A program made the translations under genes and the position numbers. Shown piece by piece: positions 2,239 to 64,000 of a stretch of DNA of 64,000 nucleotides. Numbering within the stretch: position 1 is the first letter of the stretch; each line of letters starts with the position of its first letter. Source of the stretch: Diphasiastrum complanatum (taxonomy: Eukaryota > Streptophyta > Lycopodiopsida > Lycopodiales > Lycopodiaceae); contig CM055102.1 in NCBI GenBank assembly GCA_029204225.1, forward strand, positions 16,056,229 to 16,120,228. Direction: 5' to 3'. A model generated the notes under the pieces. It saw only the letters and a list, made by a program, of their open reading frames with translations, searched no databases and had not been told where the DNA came from.

Positions 2239-2957
2239 GGTGTTCCAAGAAGGAATTGATAGGTGTGCAATTTATCAGGAAAATCTAGTATGACACACTC
2301 TATGGTAAAAATCAAACTGACAATTTTAATCGACAAATTGCTTATGTGACCGGCAGGTGTCATCATTCGTTGGTCAGCCATACGTAACTTGTACTTAGGC
2401 TTTTCCAATGTGGATATTTCCCATGCCTGTGCTAAGGACAAGGCGATAATATTCACGCCAGACCCACTATCAAGAATGGCTTGTACGGATGGATAGAATT
2501 TTTTGTAGTGCACTGGTAAAGTGATGCTATTACCTTTAGAAACACCTATATGAAGTAAGTTCATGTCAACATTATGAACCACTTCAATGTTTTTCGGTTG
2601 TCTTGACTCATCTGGTACATCAGGCTGTTGGGAGCTATGCAATATGACATCCCGCAAGGGTTTGGAAAACTTGACGGCCGTGTAGAAGGGCATGGTGATT
2701 TGAGCTTGTAAGAGATCAGAAAGAACCTCTATTCCTCGTGGTGGTTGCCCTTGCGTAGGTAACTGGGCGGATGGCGGAGTAGAAATCCTAGCTTCAGCTC
2801 TATCAAACTCATCTCGGAACTCATGGTATTGCCTTTGAGCTTCTACAGGGTCAGAGTAAGATTGTGGAATAATGGAAGTATTAGCAGGAGGGTGTGGTTG
2901 TGCTGGGTCCTTGTTCTCATCTAAGGCCCGATGTTGGGCGCGTCCGACAGCATGCAA
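2217..2957 (-). pseudogene. Gypsy aspartic protease
   Basis: The minus-strand frame contains the retropepsin active-site box AILDSGSGVNII and, about 80 residues later, FLLGTPWL, the second conserved protease strand (usually hILGRPWL). This enzyme cleaves the element's polyprotein in the particle. A one-base indel just after GTPWL throws the frame out, and the continuing protein (AGVIQDWKKNKIVFG) is found in the next frame from position 2238 downward. The N-terminal 100 residues are a proline-rich gag-pro linker. Confidence 0.8.
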
Positions 2958-3481
2958 CGGCTCTTCAGATATCCTACATGCTGGAACTGGCTTCTTGTTT
3001 TGGTTAGGACAATCTATATAGCAATGCCTTCTGATACAATCAGCACATTCAGTTACAAAGTCATATCGAAGTCGACATTCACTCCGAAAGTGAGTTGTTT
3101 CTCCGCAGACAAAACATCTCTTTTGAAGTGCTGAAGGGAAAATGACATAACCATTTTGATCAACTTCAATAGGTGGTTCCTCTGGATAATATGGCTCGTT
3201 AGGATAGGAGGTCGATGCCTCATCTACGTATGTAATAGAATGACCATAATCATAAGTAAGTTCATAGGCTGGGGTGTCATAGGAGGTATTGGGCCTGAAC
3301 TGGAGGTCGGCTCTGTTGGTTTGGCCTATTGGGTAGAGCAGATCCTCTTGGAGCTGGAAGTGCCAAGCATTGTTGTTGTGGAGGTAGGGGTTGTCTAGAC
3401 AATTCCTGGACTTGGACTAGAGTCATATAACGTGGGCTATATGGTGCTTTGTGGGTTTCCTCGTGGGGCATATTGCTGAGG

Positions 3482-3679
3482 TCAAGAGTATTGCATGTTG
3501 GGTGGGTTGTACCTACAGCTGGATGTGGTATGGGTGATCGTATCACATAGTATACAGTGTTGGGGTTCATAAAGACGGTGTAATAGACACTCATAACTGG
3601 TATGTGGACCGCGACATTGTGGGCACCATATGTCTTCTCGCCGATGGATAGCGTTACCGGATGGCAATTGCCCTGGCAA
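3482..3679 (-). pseudogene. Gypsy gag zinc knuckles
   Basis: Two cysteine/histidine clusters lie in one frame: CPQCRGPHTSYEC (C-X2-C-X3-H-X4-C, one residue short of the canonical spacing) and CILCDTITHTTSSC (C-X2-C-X4-H-X4-C, canonical). Such knuckles bind nucleic acid in gag nucleocapsid domains. The position between gag core and protease fits a Gypsy element. The frame ends and re-opens on both sides, so it is a relic. Confidence 0.7.
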
Positions 3680-4111
3680 CTGACTTTGAAAAGATTTTAA
3701 GGCTTACTGAAACTCTTTGTTGAGTTTCTCCATTTGTTGTTGATGTTGTTGATTCATCAACTGAAACTGAGATTTTCAAACTTGGTCGGAATCTCGCGGC
3801 TCACTTGGACGGTTATCAGGGAATACAAGGTGAGCTCTTTTCTCTTTCTGGTTCTCATCATCAAAACCTTCATCTTCTTCACAAATGGCATCGGACATAG
3901 CAAATTTAAGAGTAAAATACTCTTCGGTAGGTTTAAGCTCTTTACGGATGTATCTGTGAAGGCCAACTAGAAACCATATGATTAACATTTTATTAGTTGG
4001 TTGTTCCTGGACTTGACTTTTGAGACGTTTAAAACGCTCAATATAGTCATGTACGCGTTCATCTTTTTTTTTTTTAATATTACTAAGGCGTACAAAGGGG
4101 CTCTTTGTGAG

Positions 4112-4339
4112 TCAGAAAGGTTGGAAGCGTTTAATGAAAGACTCTTTCAACTCTGACCAATCTTGTCGATCGTCACGATTGAGGTTGAAAAACCACTCTC
4201 GTGCTTTATCTACCATGGTCATCGAAAAAAATTGGACTTTTGCATTATCAGTATATTCTTCATATACTTCACATGCATTCTCAAAGACTTGTAAAACTCG
4301 ATGAGGGTCCACATTACCATCAAACTTTGGTAATTCCAA
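4112..4339 (-). pseudogene. Gypsy gag core (retrotrans_gag-like)
   Basis: The frame reads LPKFDGNVDPHRVLQVFENA and later DKAREWFFNLNRDDRQDWSELKESFIKRF. That is the classic plant Gypsy gag pattern: the FDG...P..WL-like start, the A..WF..L segment and the W..LK..F..RF close. In the family it forms the capsid of the virus-like particle. Here it is a short remnant. The surrounding gag frame is split, with the upstream part continuing in another frame to about 4505, and an A/T homopolymer near 4064-4080 coincides with a frame change. Confidence 0.8.
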
Positions 4340-4559
4340 ACGGGATGTTCGTTTATCGGATCGGGCGGTATGGTGAGCATGGTGAACAAGTTGATCATCA
4401 GGGTTAGGGGTCCATTTGGATGGTCCAGGGTCTTGTTGAACCTGAGATCAAAGACGACAGAATTTGTTCTCATCATTTGGATAATTGGGTGGTGTGAATT
4501 CATCCATAAGTTCTTCGGATAAATTGTCCATGAGAACTAGGTCAACTCTTTTTTGTTGT

Positions 4560-5000
4560 TTTGTTTGTTTTTTTAATTTTTTTGGAATATATGGCTGACA
4601 GTAACTCAACCTAGCTTATCCAAGAATTCGAAAAAAATGTTAGAAACTCTAAAAATTTAGACATAGTTGAAGAATTAAAAAAAAATCGAAAAAAATCCGA
4701 AAACTCGAGAAATTCGAAAATCTAGAAAACTCAAAAAATTCAAAATTCGAAAAAGTCAAAATTCAAAAAAAATGAAAAATCCGAGAATATCGAAAAAGCC
4801 GAAAAGAAAACTGGCAAATCGGATCGTCGGACGCTAAGTCGTCGGATGCAACCTTGAAAAAAAGTTTACTTTTTGTAATTTTGTATCGGTCGTCGGATGC
4901 AATCATCGAATGGAATTTGTATTGAAAAACTCAAAAAAGTGAAAAATTTCGATCAACGCAAAAAAAGCGACGAATATTGCTACAAGCTGTAACCCACCGT
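4560..5000. repeat. A-rich stretch with GTCGGATGCAA words
   Basis: This stretch has many short runs of A and repeated AAAA-TCGAAAA-type words. At least three copies of (C)GTCGGATGCAA or close variants lie between about 4820 and 5005. The same word recurs many times at 47.8-48.2 kb. I see no coding potential. It separates the Gypsy remnant from the RRF promoter. Confidence 0.5.
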
Positions 5001-5111
5001 CGGATTAACGATACTTGACGTAGCAGGAGAAAGATAGGAGTCAAGATCTAAATATGTTTACATAATGTGTTTACAAGCCTGCATTATGGAACATGATAAT
5101 ACTTCTCTCAA

Positions 5112-5145
5112 CCAATTGCTACTAATGGAAGGAAAGTATAAATAG
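5112..5145 (+). promoter_or_regulatory. Probable RRF core promoter (CCAAT and TATA box)
   Basis: A CCAAT word sits at 5112-5116 and TATAAATAG at 5137-5145. The RRF start codon follows 87 bases after the TATA box, which leaves room for a transcription start near 5165-5175 and a short leader made largely of GAGC/GA repeats. This is the only well-formed TATA box immediately upstream of the RRF first exon. Assignment is by position and motif only. Confidence 0.6.
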
Positions 5146-5179
5146 ATTTGGAGCTTGAGCTTTCACTTCTTTTTTCAGT

Positions 5180-5230
5180 GGAGAGAGCGAGCGAGCGAGC
5201 GAGCGAGAGAGAGAGAGAGAGAGAGAGAGA
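5180..5230 (+). repeat. (GAGC)n/(GA)n tract in the RRF 5' leader
   Basis: About 50 bases of GAGC and GA repeats end one base before the RRF ATG at 5232. GA/CT tracts are common in plant 5' leaders and can influence transcription. An in-frame ATG at 5148 would add 28 residues of Arg/Glu low complexity. I prefer the ATG at 5232 because it gives a normal transit peptide and 5148 lies only a few bases past the TATA box. Confidence 0.7.
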
Positions 5231-5231
5231 T

Positions 5232-41722
<36,491 letters not shown>

Positions 41723-46354: not shown

Positions 46355-47087
46355 TTATAACACTTTGGAGTACACGATATTGGGTGTGTATCTTGATACT
46401 TGGCAATTGGTAGCAAGTTCACCAATATCCTTCACCAATGCTCGTACGCATGATGCCTTTCTTACTCTCGATAGTGCAACATATAGTTTCCCATGACTAA
46501 AAATTGGACGCGACAAAAAGAGTCCAATCACTTCCATCGTCTGTCCTTGGGCCTTGTTGATGGTCATTGCAAAGTGCCAAATCATGATGCATATAAGTTT
46601 CCTCTCTACCATCTCCAACTCTCAAGAGAAACTTAGCAAAGTCAACCTGCTCATTTACATCACTTCCTTCCAATCCCATAACCCTCATGCTTGTTTTCAA
46701 CTGATGCACTTCAACATCTTTCCACAACTGTGAAAACTTCAGTGATGTAGCTACTATTTGTGCACGACTACCTCTTCTTACCACTGGCAAAACCTGTCGA
46801 AAATCTCCACCAAGAACAACTATTATTCCACCAAAAGGAGCATTTGAAGATAACAGATCGCGAAGAGTTCTATCAACACTCTCTGATGCGTGTTTGTGCA
46901 TCATTGGAGCCTCATCCCACACTATCAGACGACATGCAATTATGAGTTTACCCAACTCACTCTGTTTTGATATACTGCAAGTAGATGTTTTATGCAAATC
47001 CATCGAAAAATTTTTAAATCGAGAGTGAGCTGTTCGGCCACCTTTCATCAACAAAGCTGCTATTCCTGATGATGCAACAACAAATGC
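46355..47087 (-). mobile_element. Helitron helicase fragment (PIF1-like), internally deleted
   Basis: On the minus strand: VVASSGIAALLMKGGRTAHS (47087-47030), KLIIACRLIVWDEAPMMHKH (DEAP box), VVLGGDFRQVLPVVRRG, and QLKTSMRV. Then after a frame jump at about 46615 comes the helicase C-terminus, HFAMTINKAQGQTMEV and SHGKLYVALSRV. This is the PIF1/RecD2-type SF1 helicase of plant Helitrons. About 200 residues between the two parts, the Walker A region and the Rep nuclease are missing. It is a relic, transcribed right to left. Confidence 0.88.
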
Positions 47088-56391: not shown

Positions 56392-57012
56392 TCAAGAGTG
56401 AAATCTCGGATTGAGAGATAGCGCTATTGTGATTTGATTGTCACAATAGATTGTTGTAGGAAGTAATTGTGCAAGGTTGAGGACTGCAAGCGGTTGTCTT
56501 AGCCAGATCGTCTCTTTTTTGGCATTTGTGACAGCTATGTATTCGGATTCTGTTGATAATAATGCAATTGAGGTCTGCTTCCGGCTGTTCCATGAGATTG
56601 GGCCTTGGTTGTATAAAAATACAAATCTAAAAGTTGATTTTCTGGTGTCGACATCTCCTGTCCAATCCGCATCTGTGTAGGCTTCAAGGATGTTGGCAAT
56701 GTGGCTGCCTCTGTAGCAGATGCTGAGAGTTTTCGTTGCTTGGATGTACTTCATGACCTTTGTTAGTGCCTTCCAATGAGTTAAGCCTAGATTTGACAGA
56801 AACTGGCTGCGTGTACTTATCGAATATGCAAGGTCTGGTCGCGTGCAGATCATTGCGTACATCAGTGAGCCGACGATGGATTGAAACGGGTAGCGCTTCA
56901 TCTCCTCATTTTCTGCCTCAATTTGAGGAGACTGTTCCTTTGATAACTTTAGTCCAAGGTCGAGTGGAAAGTGAGTTGGTTTGCAGTTGGCCATTCCATA
57001 CTTTTCCAGCAC
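56392..57012 (-). pseudogene. Copia RNase H region
   Basis: YPFQSIVGSLMYAMICTRPD, LEAYTDADWTGDVDTRKST, STESEYIAVTNAKKETIWLR and IYCDNQITIALSLNPRFHS give the Copia RNase H signature (Y.DADWAG, TESEY.A, DN...A). The frame stops before the TKHIEIRYH segment. The region is well preserved. Confidence 0.88.
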
Positions 57013-58410: not shown

Positions 58411-58884
58411 TCAGTAGCTGGTTGTATATTGTTGATGTATCTCGTTGGCCTTGCAGAACTCCTTGAATTCTGTGCAGATGTACTCTCCCCTTCCATCTAT
58501 GCGTAGAGCATTGATCTTCTTCTGGGTCTGGTCTGCAGATGCCTTGAACTGCTTGAAGAACTTGAATGCTTCAGATTTGTTCTTCATATAGTAGGTTGCA
58601 GTCCTTCGAGAGAAGTCATCGATGAAGGTTAGAAAATAGAGAGCTCCCCCTGTGGAAGCAGTCTGCATCGGGCCACAAATGTCACTATGTACAAGGTCAA
58701 GCAAGCCCTTGAATGTATGAACTGAGTCTGAATTGAAGAGACTTCTAGCATGCTTGTTGATAATACAACTTTCGCATGGAGAAGTTGGCTTGTTGACTGA
58801 AGGCAGATCTTGTACTAGACTCTGAGCTGACATTTGCTGAATACTATTGAAGTTAAGACGGCCAAGTTTGAAATGCCACAGCAT
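58411..58884 (-). pseudogene. Copia GAG-pre-integrase and integrase core
   Basis: MLWHFKLGRLNFNSIQQMSA is the pre-integrase box. Then come CESCIINKHARSLF (zinc-binding Cys pair), LDLVHSDICGPM (first catalytic Asp), YFLTFIDDFSRRTATYYMKN (second Asp) and GRGEYICTEFKEFC (catalytic Glu region). The integrase joins cDNA to the host chromosome. The frame ends at QQYTTSY and continues after a stop with PQSNGVAEWKNQTLIK. Confidence 0.88.
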
Positions 58885-59030: not shown

Positions 59031-59723
<693 letters not shown>

Positions 59724-59832
59724 CACTAACTCTAAGGAGCTAGCTACTTAAGACCTTTTGGTCCTTTGATCGCTCTGTGCATCTACAGAGTGTTCAACTC
59801 ACTACTCTCTATCACTCCTTCTCTTCGTTCAG

Positions 59833-59840
<8 letters not shown>

Positions 59841-59903
<63 letters not shown>
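59841..59903. repeat. (AT)31 microsatellite
   Basis: Uninterrupted AT dinucleotides. Confidence 0.95.
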
Positions 59904-59906
<3 letters not shown>

Positions 59907-60042
59907 GTCAGAGTCTTCTGATTTATTGTAATTATAGTTTACAAGATGATTAGCCGTTTAAACAGGATCCGTAGATCCGTTATATTAGAGAAACTTAGAG
60001 CCCGAAGAGGGCCTTTGAAAAAGATGTTTTTTTATTTTTTTT

Positions 60043-60258
60043 CTAGAAAAAATTGTCGAGAAGATCAATTTTATTAGCTAGGTAGGCCTCGTATTGATTA
60101 TAATGGTCAAAATCAAAATAAACTTGGGCTGGATCGTTTAGAATTCTTACAAAAAGATTATGTACAGGAGCAGAAACAGAAGTAAAAACAATATTTACAG
60201 ATTTCTCTATTATTTTGTCGAGCTCCTCTTGGGTAATCAACACTTTTGGTGAAGAAAC
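60043..60258 (-). other. In-frame continuation of the H3-like gene beyond a TAG
   Basis: Directly after the TAG at 60259-60261 the same frame runs on for 71 codons: VSSPKVLITQEELDKIIEKS, then NDPAQVYFDFDHYNQYEAYL to a stop at 60043. It has protein-like composition (a helical acidic/hydrophobic segment). Either the gene once ended here and was shortened by a point mutation, or the TAG is read through or removed. No family recognised. Confidence 0.5.
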
Positions 60259-60894
60259 CTACTGAGGAGCTGGACAAATAACAGGAGGAGGAAGGGGTGA
60301 CGATTCTCGATCTGAGTCAGATTCTCCAGCATCTGACTCATAGCTCAGGAAGATACGAGGTCTCTTGGCCGGGATAACTCTAGGAGGAAGGGAAGCAGCT
60401 GGCCTTTGAGATCCAGCCTTCTTGGGGACATGCTGCTTCCTCTTCCTCCTAGAGGTAGTCGGCAAGTCGGTTCTATCCAGAGGCAAGTCTTTATAGGTGC
60501 TGGTATTATCAACATGCAGAACAGAATATCGGTCCCGAAGCCTTCTGAGAATGACGAAATCTTTTGGCATGATGGTGACACGCTTACCATGCACTGTCAA
60601 AAGACAAGTATCCTCAAAAAACTGGAACAAAAAATCTTCTGCGGCACCCTGTAAGGCCTGCGTGGCTGTCACGACAAAACGAACATTTAGCCCAAGTGAC
60701 AGAGTAACATTCCTTACAGATCGGCCGAAAGGAGCTCCAGGAATCAACAATTCAGTTAATCTCTGGAGTTTTCTTATCTCCCTCAGCCAGACCTGCTTCT
60801 TGCCACGTCTACGGCCAGTACCAGGGAGAACACGAGAATGAGATGGTTGTACAATGGTTATGGCACAGGCAGTGGATTTGGTGTTGGCCATCAT
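60259..60894 (-). CDS. Divergent histone H3-fold protein with long C-terminal extension
   Basis: The frame starts MMANTKSTA; the second Met (60891) aligns ANTKSTA with the H3 N-terminus ARTKQTA. The tail is only about 32 residues and lacks the K9, K14 and K27 regions. Residues 33-122 form the histone fold: VWLREIRKLQRLTELLI (alphaN), PFGRSVRN (alpha1), RFVVTATQALQGAAEDFLFQ (alpha2) and HGKRVTIMPKDFVILRRLRD (loop 2 and alpha3). Loop 1 has canonical H3 length, unlike CENH3 where it is longer. An 88-residue extension follows, with basic patches (SRRKRKQHVPKK, PAKRPR), an acidic Ser/Asp run (SDAGESDSDRESS) and a Pro-rich end. The product would be nuclear and could replace H3 in nucleosomes or mimic it. 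There is no intron. It is divergently paired with the plus-strand frame at 61788. The same frame continues 71 codons beyond the stop. Confidence 0.85.
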   Translation of the reverse strand: MMANTKSTACAITIVQPSHSRVLPGTGRRRGKKQVWLREIRKLQRLTELLIPGAPFGRSVRNVTLSLGLNVRFVVTATQALQGAAEDFLFQFFEDTCLLTVHGKRVTIMPKDFVILRRLRDRYSVLHVDNTSTYKDLPLDRTDLPTTSRRKRKQHVPKKAGSQRPAASLPPRVIPAKRPRIFLSYESDAGESDSDRESSPLPPPVICPAPQ

Positions 60895-61034
60895 TCTCAA
60901 AAGAAGAAAATTAAAAAAAAAAAAAGTTTAAACAAAAACAAAGGAGATGAAAACAAAAAAATTTGCGATAAAAAAACGCTTGAGATCGATACCAGAACTG
61001 AATATTGGTTTCGAACACAAGAGATACACAAAAT

Positions 61035-61650
61035 ATTTTAAGAAACGAGATGCGCGTTCGAAAGCGATATTGGACTACTAGTGGTATCGGTTTCGAGCGC
61101 ACTGTGAGAGAGGCGTGGATGCTTGAACGGTGAGAGAGTGCGCTTGAGAGCGATATTGGGAGCGAAAACCGAAAATTTTGCAAAAAAAAATGAAAATTCC
61201 GAGGACTTATATATACGATATTTTTGCACGTGTGAAAAGACGGCCGAGACACGTGTCGTCAGTTAATTGGTCCACGTGAAATGTCCGTACTGACAATGAT
61301 GACTCAATTATGAGGCCACGTGGGCTGGGACACGTGCACGAATCCGTTTTCGACGTGTCATTCTCGCACATGACAGAGGTCAGATCAATCATTCTCTGTA
61401 TGGCGTATTAATTTTGACCAATCACACGTCGACACGTGTTCCTTCGCTACTCCTCCACACATGCATTTTTTTTTTATAAATAGGTCATTTTCGGCTCGGA
61501 TTTTCATGCCAATTTACGATTTATTGGCCGGATATCGATTTCAAGCGCACCGTTTGCACTGATTACTCTCCATTGACTTACTTGCGCCTAGAACCGATAT
61601 TGCTGGTATCGTATTCAAGCGCGCATTACATCTCATTTCTTTTGTGCTCT
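61035..61650. repeat. Imperfect inverted repeat flanking the bidirectional promoter
   Basis: Left arm (about 61038-61095) reads TTTAAGAAACGAGATGCGCG then TTCGAAAGCGATATTGG. The right arm (about 61590-61645), read on the minus strand, is AAAGAAATGAGATGTAATGC followed by GCGCTTGAATACGATACC. Further copies of the words TTTCAAGCGCA, GAGCGATATTGG and GGTATCG occur in mirrored order on both sides. The two halves of the leader region appear to be a diverged inverted duplication, centred on the G-box cluster. Confidence 0.6.
61200..61490. promoter_or_regulatory. Bidirectional promoter with six CACGTG cores
   Basis: A minus-strand TATA box (TATATAAG, plus 61206-61213) lies about 280 bases before the H3-like ATG. 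A plus-strand TATA box (TATAAATAGG, 61475-61484) lies about 300 bases before the ATG at 61788. Between them CACGTG occurs at 61227, 61250, 61273, 61317, 61331 and 61433, with ACGTGTC/ACGTGKC extensions typical of plant ABRE/G-box elements bound by bZIP and bHLH factors. The arrangement suggests co-regulation of the two divergent genes, possibly by stress or light signals. Confidence 0.7.
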
Positions 61651-61787
61651 GTGTTCACGCGCTCGGATCCAATACTCTAATTTTTAATATCTCTTTCAAG
61701 CGCACATTGCCTTGAGGTGCTTGCCTGACCTGCCGTTTGCGCCTGAGAGCAATATTTGGAATTTTACATCTGTTGTTTTTGTTTAAA

Positions 61788-62279
61788 ATGTCTAATTTTG
61801 ATTTTAATTTGCTTTCTTTTTTTTATGATGATGGTATTACTGATAGTTTGGAGTATTTCAAATCTTTTTTTTCTCCTTTTCATTGTATTCTTCCTTCTAT
61901 AATTGAGGGCCCTGGTGTGGAGGCATTTTCTGAGATATATCTCAGATTTAACTCCTTGTTCAGTACTCCATTATTCAGATCTCAGAATAAGGACATGATT
62001 CATTATTTGGACCTGGTGGCACTCGACAAGCATATCTATAAAGCTAAGCTTGACAGAATGTTTACCAAGTTACATAATGATTTCAAGTTTGTAGATGAGT
62101 GCCCAATTCACAATAAAAATGTAGATTTGTTAATTTTCAGTCTGCTTTTGTTTTTTTTTCTTTTGTTAAATATTTTTGACGATTCGGAAGCTGTCTCTTC
62201 CACTTCTAAAGCTACTTCTTCTAGTGGTACAAAGTCTAAAAAGTCAAAGATTGTAGATATAGATACTTTTTTTTATTGA
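61788..62279 (+). CDS. Unknown reading frame divergent from the H3-like gene (part 1)
   Basis: ATG 61788 opens MSNFDFNLLSFFYDDGITDS, then LEYFKSFFSPFHCILPSIIE and HYLDLVALDKHIYKAKLDRM, followed by a very hydrophobic run (LIFSLLLFFFLLLNIF, about residues 112-127) and a Ser/Lys-rich end (TSSSGTKSKKSKIV). The hydrophobic run may be intron rather than protein, since TTAATTTTCAG precedes it. The frame ends TTTTTTTTATTGA after a T homopolymer, and the next protein-like piece (TSVNLDDCSDFDPARN) is in another frame. The family is not recognised. Confidence 0.45.
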   Translation: MSNFDFNLLSFFYDDGITDSLEYFKSFFSPFHCILPSIIEGPGVEAFSEIYLRFNSLFSTPLFRSQNKDMIHYLDLVALDKHIYKAKLDRMFTKLHNDFKFVDECPIHNKNVDLLIFSLLLFFFLLLNIFDDSEAVSSTSKATSSSGTKSKKSKIVDIDTFFY

Positions 62280-62309
62280 TACTAGCGTTAATCTAGATGA
62301 TTGTTCAGA

Positions 62310-63259
62310 TTTTGATCCTGCTCGAAATAGGGCATCGTTTTAGGCCCTAGAACACCCACTATCCTTTCTCTTTCTGATAAATCTTTGATCACTTTGCCTA
62401 CTTATAATATAGATAATAATTCATTTTTGACAATATCAGATCTTTTTTACTTCATTGAAGCTAAGACTCTTTGTATTTTGAGCAAAGAGCTTGATGAATC
62501 TTCGGATGTAATTGATTTTGATGTTGATGATGATGTACATAATGATAAGTTTTATTCAGGGAAAGATTGCTTGAAAATAGTTGTGGAGAAAATGCGCAAC
62601 AAAGAAGATAATCTACCTTCTGAGGAAGAGTTTCTTAGACTCCAAAGTTAACTTGGTTTTTCACAACCAGCTGCCTATTCACCAACAATATTGACATCAA
62701 AAGGTGGACATAATATTGATGGAGAGATAATAATCAGGGAAGACAAAGTTGAATGCGTAAGTTTTTATATCTTATCACGTACTAGTAGATTTGTTATGTC
62801 AGATTATATACTGGAGCTTACTTTATTTTTTATCATTTCAGAAAATAATTTTCCTTGATGATTTCGCAATTCGTCGAGGAGGGCAGAGATCTTCTACTGG
62901 AGAATTTTCAAGAGATCATGCACTGGGACACTATCCGAAGTTCTTCAAGAATAATGAGATAAGTGTTGTCCATTCAAAGTTTCATCAACTTGGTGAGACT
63001 ATGATTATGGCAATCAAGGCACTGTCTCATTTTCTTGGAGGACATAATTTCAATAAGGTGCATAAAATAATTTTTTGTAAAAAAAATCATTGCGGTTAAA
63101 ATTTTAGGATATGGACCAGTGAATTTCATGTTCAGATCATCTCATTTTGCATTGTATGCTGCTTACGTTGATTTGAGTAAGCATGAAAACTATGAGCTGT
63201 TGGATCCATACGAAAGAAGAAAATTGTTGCATGATTCTAAGTTGCAACTTTCATTGTAA
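62310..63259 (+). pseudogene. Unknown reading frame (part 2), interrupted
   Basis: It continues as GPRTPTILSLSDKSLITLPT, YFIEAKTLCILSKELDESSD and EKMRNKEDNLPSEEEFLRLQ to a TAA at 62649. In the same frame follows LGFSQPAAYSPTILTSKGGH to EDKVEC, then a clear intron (62757-62841, GTAAGT...TTTCAG), KIIFLDDFAIRRGGQRSSTG and HALGHYPKFFKNNEISVVHS, ...MAIKALSHFLGGHNFNK. A second apparent intron (about 63057-63110) leads to YGPVNFMFRSSHFALYAAYV and ...LLHDSKLQLSL, with stop at 63259, but its phases do not match cleanly. Compact introns and a protein-like alphabet indicate a real gene, now or recently functional. The family is not recognised. Confidence 0.45.
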
Positions 63260-63336: not shown

Positions 63337-63998
63337 TCAAAATCTTACCATATAATGTGTTATATGATCAACACCCCATGCACTTTGAACTGCATCCACA
63401 AATTCACTGATTGTTTTCTGTATCATTTGTAGATCAGTATTTGAAACTTTATCTTTTCTCAAGTATTTCACCATGTTGTCTAACTTTTTCCAAATTTCTA
63501 CTTTGTGTATACGAGTAGAATTTTCTTCTTCGAAATCTTGAGTTGCTGCAATAATTTCTTTCCAAACCGTGTATTGAACCTTGGATTGTTTGCCAGAATA
63601 ATTTGATAAAAATCTTTGAGCTTTACATCCTCCAATGCTCGGCTTGTATGGAATATTTCTTGTTTTACCTGATAGTTTGTCATCGTTTTTTATTTTAACG
63701 TGGTTTTTATGTAAGCATGCTTTGGACAACACATTCTCTAATATGGAAATAGCTTCCTTCGCAGAGGCCTTTGGTTCGGAATTCCATGCAAAGAAGATGT
63801 GAAGATATATTATTTTTTCTATAATATGCACCTCTGCATGCAATGTACAGATATGAACATTTCGTAGAGAAATTGGTAGTACATGTTTCCAATTAGGATC
63901 TTCTCGATCTCTTGATATTCATGTACTCCTTGTCATGTCTTTTGTTGTTTTCATGCAACACAAACAAGGGTGTTTAGAGTTAGCGCCATGAGATACAT
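63337..63998 (-). CDS. Unknown partial gene running off the right edge
   Basis: The minus frame from the window edge reads VSHGANSKHPCLCCMKTTKD (a Cys pair in a zinc-ribbon-like setting), a TGA at about 63919, then REDPNWKHVLPISLRNVHIC, LHAEVHIIEKIIYLHIFFAW, SGKTRNIPYKPSIGGCKAQR and AVQSAWGVDHITHYMVRF before the stop at 63337. The middle is a Lys-rich helical segment. From memory this has the feel of proteins carried by large DNA transposons, but I cannot name a family. It converges with the plus-strand frame, leaving only about 77 bases between their stops. Confidence 0.45.
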
Positions 63999-64000
63999 TG

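Follow-up and report, generated by a model that had tools for sequence, protein, structure and literature searches.

In the fungus Pseudocercospora fijiensis and its relatives, a hAT DNA transposon has captured histone H3 and amplified it to hundreds of copies, and the copies of the housekeeping H3 gene have all been inactivated by RIP, the original excepted (according to the available portion of PMC6710886). The listings from our searches of open-licence PMC papers, those on lycophyte genomes and transposons included, contained this fungal precedent and neither a plant or other functional transposon-borne histone nor a diverged, maintained H3 in plant transposons. Among DNA transposons more generally, the CMCT type (EnSpm/CACTA, Mirage, Chapaev, Transib, Plavaka, ESTA and Lanisha) is described in the available text of PMC12730594 as having a transposase pattern of D, D, C(2)C, H(3-4)H, E and CA..TG ends. 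Genes directed at chromatin are also found on transposons: VANC, encoded by VANDAL elements, is reported to counter silencing and acts on DNA methylation (available text of PMC13317346), TET/JBP transposons carry a DNA-methylation gene thought to counter silencing (available text of PMC12730594), and HarbingerS elements with a SET domain are named in the title of a reference in that same paper.

Here we describe an H3-like frame in a 64,000-nucleotide stretch of the genome of the clubmoss Diphasiastrum complanatum, which we refer to as the window. Our main reading, to which we give a probability of roughly three in four, is that this odd H3 is one decayed copy of a gene borne by DNA transposon families that are very common in the genome. 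The frame runs uninterrupted on the minus strand at 60259..60891 and encodes the first 210 aa of the gene, followed by a premature stop; it comprises a tail that begins MANTKSTA..., a histone fold at about residues 32-120, and the start of a C-terminal extension. The H3 fold of this frame is real, because it matches the Pfam Histone profile (PF00125) with 84.1 bits and an E of 1.2e-23, against a curated cut-off of 26.4, and because the best PDB chains for the protein are H3 (E 2e-20, residues 32-120); matches elsewhere in the genome identify the same gene. The first-pass annotation had called this fold from the letters of the window, together with a loop 1 of H3 length and an ARTK-like N-terminus lacking K9, K14 and K27, and on each of these points the profile search, the alignment and the tail of the window copy agree with it. 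Pfam matches of the window protein to CENP-T_C and CbiC fell under the cut-off and were set aside.

We searched the genome (1.745 Gb in 5176 contigs) both for the Histone family and with the window protein. The Histone family search gave 6325 first-look candidates, the best of which alone were scored (150 by count, with 153 matches reported); 13 near-canonical H3 places head the result, and the remainder score far lower, many of them with in-frame stops. With the window protein as query there were 7671 first-look candidates, and all 150 scored places match, most of them over residues 1-210 and, the window copy itself excepted, at 78-87% identity; among these 150, matches are present on each of contigs C1-C23. 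Many of the 150 scored copies contain in-frame stops, mostly TAG and TGA, and C>T or G>A accounts for 71 of the 109 changes among five copies of the window's own family (W, described below), as expected for the decay of methylated repeats. The frame is one copy of a repeat and not a single-copy H3 variant; the suggestion that it might be a lineage-specific H3 variant serving as a host gene is unsupported.

To place these copies in their surroundings we fetched 20 regions with H3-like copies, four further copies taken from the top-scoring window matches, and extensions of these loci. The first 20 regions fall into family A (13), family B (6) and one further type (locus L013), and the window copy together with loci L033-L036 makes up a third family, W. 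We note in passing that L013 holds two different H3-like stretches in a single locus (4818-5210 and 7098-7714), whose frames resemble family A frames at A6 5610-6227 and 6338-7015; it is a fourth carrier type. A separate observation concerns L033 and L034, in which about 600 bp beside the H3 gene is tandemly duplicated at about 88% identity (L033:3883-5137, L034:3642-4857), and which are 98% identical including their flanks, as a segmental duplication.

In structure, the repeats resemble DNA transposons about 8-8.7 kb long. All three families start with CATTAG, with ends of the form CATTAG...CTAATG, and in the one A copy and one B copy examined for terminal inverted repeats (TIRs), these are perfect: 37/37 bp for the A element at C6:51592963-51600908 (A6 2564-10509), and 35/35 bp for the B element in B7 at 4846-13526. 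The W terminal inverted repeats are imperfect, and L034 has both ends, about 8.4 kb apart. In the window, the right terminus of the element in H3 orientation is TATTAGAGAAACTTAGAGCCC at 59983..60008, which matches the terminus CATTAGAGAAACTTAGAGCCC of the sister W copies; no left end was found for the window element. The left ends of B and W have a subterminal AATGCCATGTAGGA in common. Genome-wide, allowing up to 2 mismatches, the terminal motifs match 1694 times for A, 2024 for B and 1326 for W, counts of ends rather than elements and with short derivatives included, and the reversed controls match 0 times. Of the 20 window-type H3 places listed on C1 and C2, 6 are followed within about 4 kb downstream by a correctly oriented W terminus (exact matches only), where by our estimate chance would place far less than one.

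Insertion itself can be read from a 1.09-kb element with family A ends (L021:1084-2173) that lies within a family B copy: the target is intact in L018 and L023, with a duplication of 0 bp, and L028 has a small gap at the same empty site. At nine other end pairs, 0-3 matching bases flank the element, and because the number varies, no constant length of target-site duplication is shown. A second short element with family A ends occurs at L018:8686-9860, and both (1.1-1.2 kb) are likely to be non-autonomous derivatives. From these comparisons, at least three families with transposon-like ends (A, B and W) carry H3 together with the same companion genes, so that of the several origins first proposed for the window frame, capture of a histone by a transposable element is the one that these families bear out.

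The surroundings of the window copy are themselves rich in transposons, as read by eye, with pieces of mobile elements at 46497-47054, 56392-57012, 58411-58884, 35289-37508 and 19374-19832; these include a Pif1-like (Helitron) helicase, copia RNase H and integrase, LINE-like reverse transcriptase and endonuclease, and hAT-like pieces. Long CT and TA microsatellites occupy 59530-59904, just beyond the right end of the element. On the other side, beside the window, two direct repeats of about 430 bp that are 95.6% identical and start 5.5 kb apart (L029:3852-9833, at about 67.9-73.8 kb) are likely to mark an LTR retrotransposon upstream of gene X.

When proteins are compared between families, the companion genes X and Y, like H3, prove common to A, B and W, and a further gene, Z, occurs in A and B. 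In family B the genes follow one another as X, Y, H3 and Z, with X and H3 pointing forward and Y and Z in reverse; some segments are inverted in family A relative to B, and within B the left part of L023 is inverted (L023:1-2263 against L028:1-2248), a pattern that suggests repeated internal inversion. Across 24 H3-bearing loci (13 A, 6 B and 5 W, the window included; most slices are 10 kb, and some genes lie outside them), tblastn with single gene pieces taken from A and B only detected X at 15 loci, Y at 20 and Z at 13, while L026 and L036 gave no match to any of these genes. In the window, gene Y lies in pieces on the plus strand at 61788..63256, divergent from H3 and conserved with families A and B (W:10745-12285 gives E down to 3e-29 against B7 and 2e-10 against A6). 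The intergenic region between them, 60892..61787, contains four imperfect copies of ATATCGATTTCAAGCGCAC at 61084-61705, and similar motifs were counted in W copies; the head-to-head arrangement of H3 and Y in W and B, with the motif array between them in W, suggests that the two may be co-regulated.

The C-terminal part of gene X, a putative DDE transposase, lies on the minus strand at 63340..64000, and the gene runs past the window to about 64937. The window X matches family B with E 4e-67 and family A with E 7e-47, and against the B row the W row is 66% and the A row 45% identical. Its motifs follow in the order KLD, DLKTL, a C(2)C pair, HI...H (H(4)H) and GMEKSH, and we read the order D, D, C(2)C, H(4)H, E by eye in B7, L035 and A6; D46, D144, C164 and C167 are invariant in the three rows, and the final exon, which bears H(4)H and E, could be aligned in two of the three. 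Searched against Pfam up to E 10, X gave only CbiC (0.022), in one member, and no transposase, and against PDB the best E was 0.67, again with no transposase; the label is for this reason a reasoned call from the motif layout. Gene Z alone gave nothing useful against PDB. In Pfam scans around the copies nothing reached the cut-off, and ten single ORFs gave weak matches below it; the other scans covered one window frame, three minus-strand frames of L028, the minus frames of L016, and four pieces of plus frames from these two loci.

The 88-residue C-terminal extension originally described for the window protein proves not to be its natural end. Codon 211 is a sense codon in L035 and L036 and a stop in the window copy and in L033 and L034 (near-identical duplicates of each other); beyond it, L035 meets further stops, and the frame of L036 continues to codon 369. 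The continued part of L036 matches the C-terminal part of family B H3 (27% over 118 residues, blastp E 3e-11, shuffle z 14.5), with the same alignment endpoint in both, so that the 88 residues form only the beginning of a longer, conserved region at the C-terminus. A remnant of this domain persists in the window past the premature stop, on the minus strand at 60046..60258, where 71 codons can be followed until the frame is lost at a deletion junction (60041..60044). Here about 2.4 kb between the H3 gene and the right end is missing relative to L033 (L033 position 6306 joins 8683 at W 13957/13960), and comparison with L034 and L036 gives the same joint. The earlier suggestion of a decaying duplicate thus holds for this one copy, through its premature stop and 2.4-kb deletion.

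Across families, K4 is present in 24 of 24 copies with a tail that could be read and K9 in 0 of 24, in line with the truncated tail noted at first; more broadly, of the modifiable lysines K4, K9, K14 and K27, K4 alone is kept, and it is the whole tail beyond residue 8, not K9 alone, that has been replaced. Family A tails read MARTKQTARDPR (13 copies, with D at position 9 in 11 and G in 2), family B tails MDRRKQTRRDFF (6 copies) and family W tails MARTKSTARAIT (5 copies, with private changes in three); residues 1-8 of H3 are retained in full in a typical A tail, at 7 positions in W and at 5 in B. In family W, the window copy is the only one read in which R2 and R8 have both changed; of the others, two have MARTKSTAR, one has K at position 2 and one has H at position 8. 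The ARTKQTAR stretch of family A sits after MSEE (MSEEMARTK, with the start perhaps four residues upstream) and may for that reason not be the mature N-terminus; within family A, tail and fold were observed in a single open frame in L010 only (417 aa).

We compared the fold in 23 copies, omitting the B copy L021, whose tail is out of frame with its fold. R69, H113, K115, R116, T118, K122 and R129 are retained in all 23 and R83 and D123 in 22, residues of the H3-H4, H3-H3' and DNA contacts. R49 is retained in 6 of 23 and R72 in 7 (with K in 13), both DNA-contact arginines, and K79 is lost in all 23. Most contact residues of the fold are retained, R49 and R72 being mostly changed.

Maintenance of the protein was assessed by counting synonymous changes with the trinucleotide context held. 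In W (5 copies), 43 of 109 changes are synonymous against an expected 32.1 (sd 4.2, P 0.008); in B (4 copies, without L018 and L021), the figure is 28 of 58 against 19.4 (sd 2.7), reached by 0 of 1000 simulations; in A (13 copies), 21 of 58 against 19.0 (sd 3.3) is not significant. Mean pairwise dN/dS is 0.48 in W, 0.26 in B (5 copies) and 0.45 in A. The choice of high-scoring copies with long frames biases this sample against stops. We consider the stronger argument for maintenance to be that the H3 frame is retained across families whose DNA can hardly be aligned: blastn of A against B gives nothing, of A against W (the window) 48 bp, and of B against W a few pieces at about 66-76%. A unique, neutrally evolving frame, the outcome that the first-pass annotation held would count against it, is not what we see; the frame is highly repeated, with a synonymous excess in two of three families.

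What the histone does for its carrier can be addressed more tentatively. Lysine 9 of H3 is the residue by which plants usually silence transposons. If the element H3 forms nucleosomes with H4, a K9-less H3 would be predicted to resist H3K9-based silencing of the element and so may help it to withstand that silencing. It is possible, albeit with the odds against it, that a transposon lineage evolved a K9-less, K4-keeping H3 in order to pack itself unsilenceably, making a nucleosome component into an anti-silencing weapon. The same retained tail start is open to another use, since the K4-bearing start of the H3 tail is a known docking site of reader domains: the histone could work within the transposition complex, where it might bend DNA, pair the ends or dock X through the K4 tail, rather than counter silencing. 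The possible co-regulation of H3 and Y would fit such a role, but no reader domain was found in the scanned pieces of X, Y and Z, and we regard this account as doubtful. That H3 was once captured and has simply been copied since without a role, as in the fungal hAT elements whose captured and amplified H3 copies are inactivated (available portion of PMC6710886), would explain the in-frame stops in many copies and the lack of a selection signal in family A; we hold it to be quite unlikely, given that H3 is retained in families whose DNA hardly aligns, that these families preserve the K4 end of the tail along with most contacts of the fold, and that W and B have both a synonymous excess and a C-terminal domain in common.

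As to where the histone came from, its source may be H3 or CENH3, and it might be a captured CENH3 that steers the element to centromere-type chromatin or keeps the element tolerated there. In their ARTK start and free tail the element H3s are CENH3-like, and helix 1 of all three families carries LIPxAPF (P63 in place of R in 22 of 23 copies, A65 in 23 of 23), close to plant CENH3s. Plant CENH3s resemble the element H3s in their ARTK start, divergent tail and LIPxAPF-like helix 1, and in a tree of 15 sequences, four of them centromeric, the element H3s cluster with one another (84) and, less firmly, with plant CENH3 (a weak bootstrap of 69); family B also has one extra residue in loop 1. Unlike plant CENH3, however, the element H3s are repeat-borne, have large extensions, C-terminal in W and B and N-terminal in A, and in A and W keep a loop 1 of H3 length. 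Their identity to host H3 (44-53%) and to rice CENH3 (45-52%) is about equal, and copies occur, among the scored matches, on every contig C1-C23. A query with an Arabidopsis CENH3 core found canonical H3 at 59% identity, and no host CENH3 was recognised among the 150 scored places, the rest of which lie at 47-56% and are not separable from element copies; because the host CENH3 was not found, this comparison is incomplete. On balance this account of a captured CENH3 that serves the element at centromere-type chromatin seems to us unlikely. Several large DNA viruses encode histones, and the multi-gene content of the elements might suggest an endogenous virus carrying one, as was also proposed at the outset; yet tblastn against IMG/VR with X and the window H3 found no relatives, the Pfam-scanned stretches, which do not take in every frame, contain no capsid, polymerase or packaging domain, and TIRs of 35-37 bp with a 1.09 kb TIR-bounded derivative (L021:1084-2173) are features of transposons, which leaves a viral source highly improbable.

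Under the main reading, a histone gene borne by DNA transposons, annotators should expect many divergent 'H3 genes' in this genome to be transposon cargo. If the transposons kept their H3 as the families diverged, the histone itself would be a front in the arms race, and whether heterochromatin can be escaped by replacing the substrate of silencing becomes a testable question. The very large number of copies and the preservation of the K4 end amount to a natural experiment that can reveal which portions of H3 are required by an element of this kind.

The fungal hAT element, from what is available of PMC6710886, is the closest precedent for the cargo, being likewise a DNA transposon that amplifies H3. 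In contrast to it, the clubmoss element H3 has a core about 50% diverged, occurs in three families, and has its own tail and extra domains, and the clubmoss X matches no Pfam transposase family; the scanned stretches gave no hAT Pfam match, and no 8-bp duplication was seen at the ten insertions examined. With the CMCT type as set out in the available text of PMC12730594, the clubmoss elements share 5'-CA..TG-3' ends, TIRs and a DDE order in which C(2)C and H(4)H precede the last E, and they differ from it in that X has no profile match and there is no constant target duplication of 2-5 bp; histone cargo is unmentioned in that text. A SET domain, such as that of HarbingerS, would modify histones. 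Like HarbingerS, VANC and TET/JBP transposons, as far as the available texts of PMC12730594 and PMC13317346 describe them, the clubmoss element carries a chromatin-type gene; unlike them, its cargo is the histone itself.
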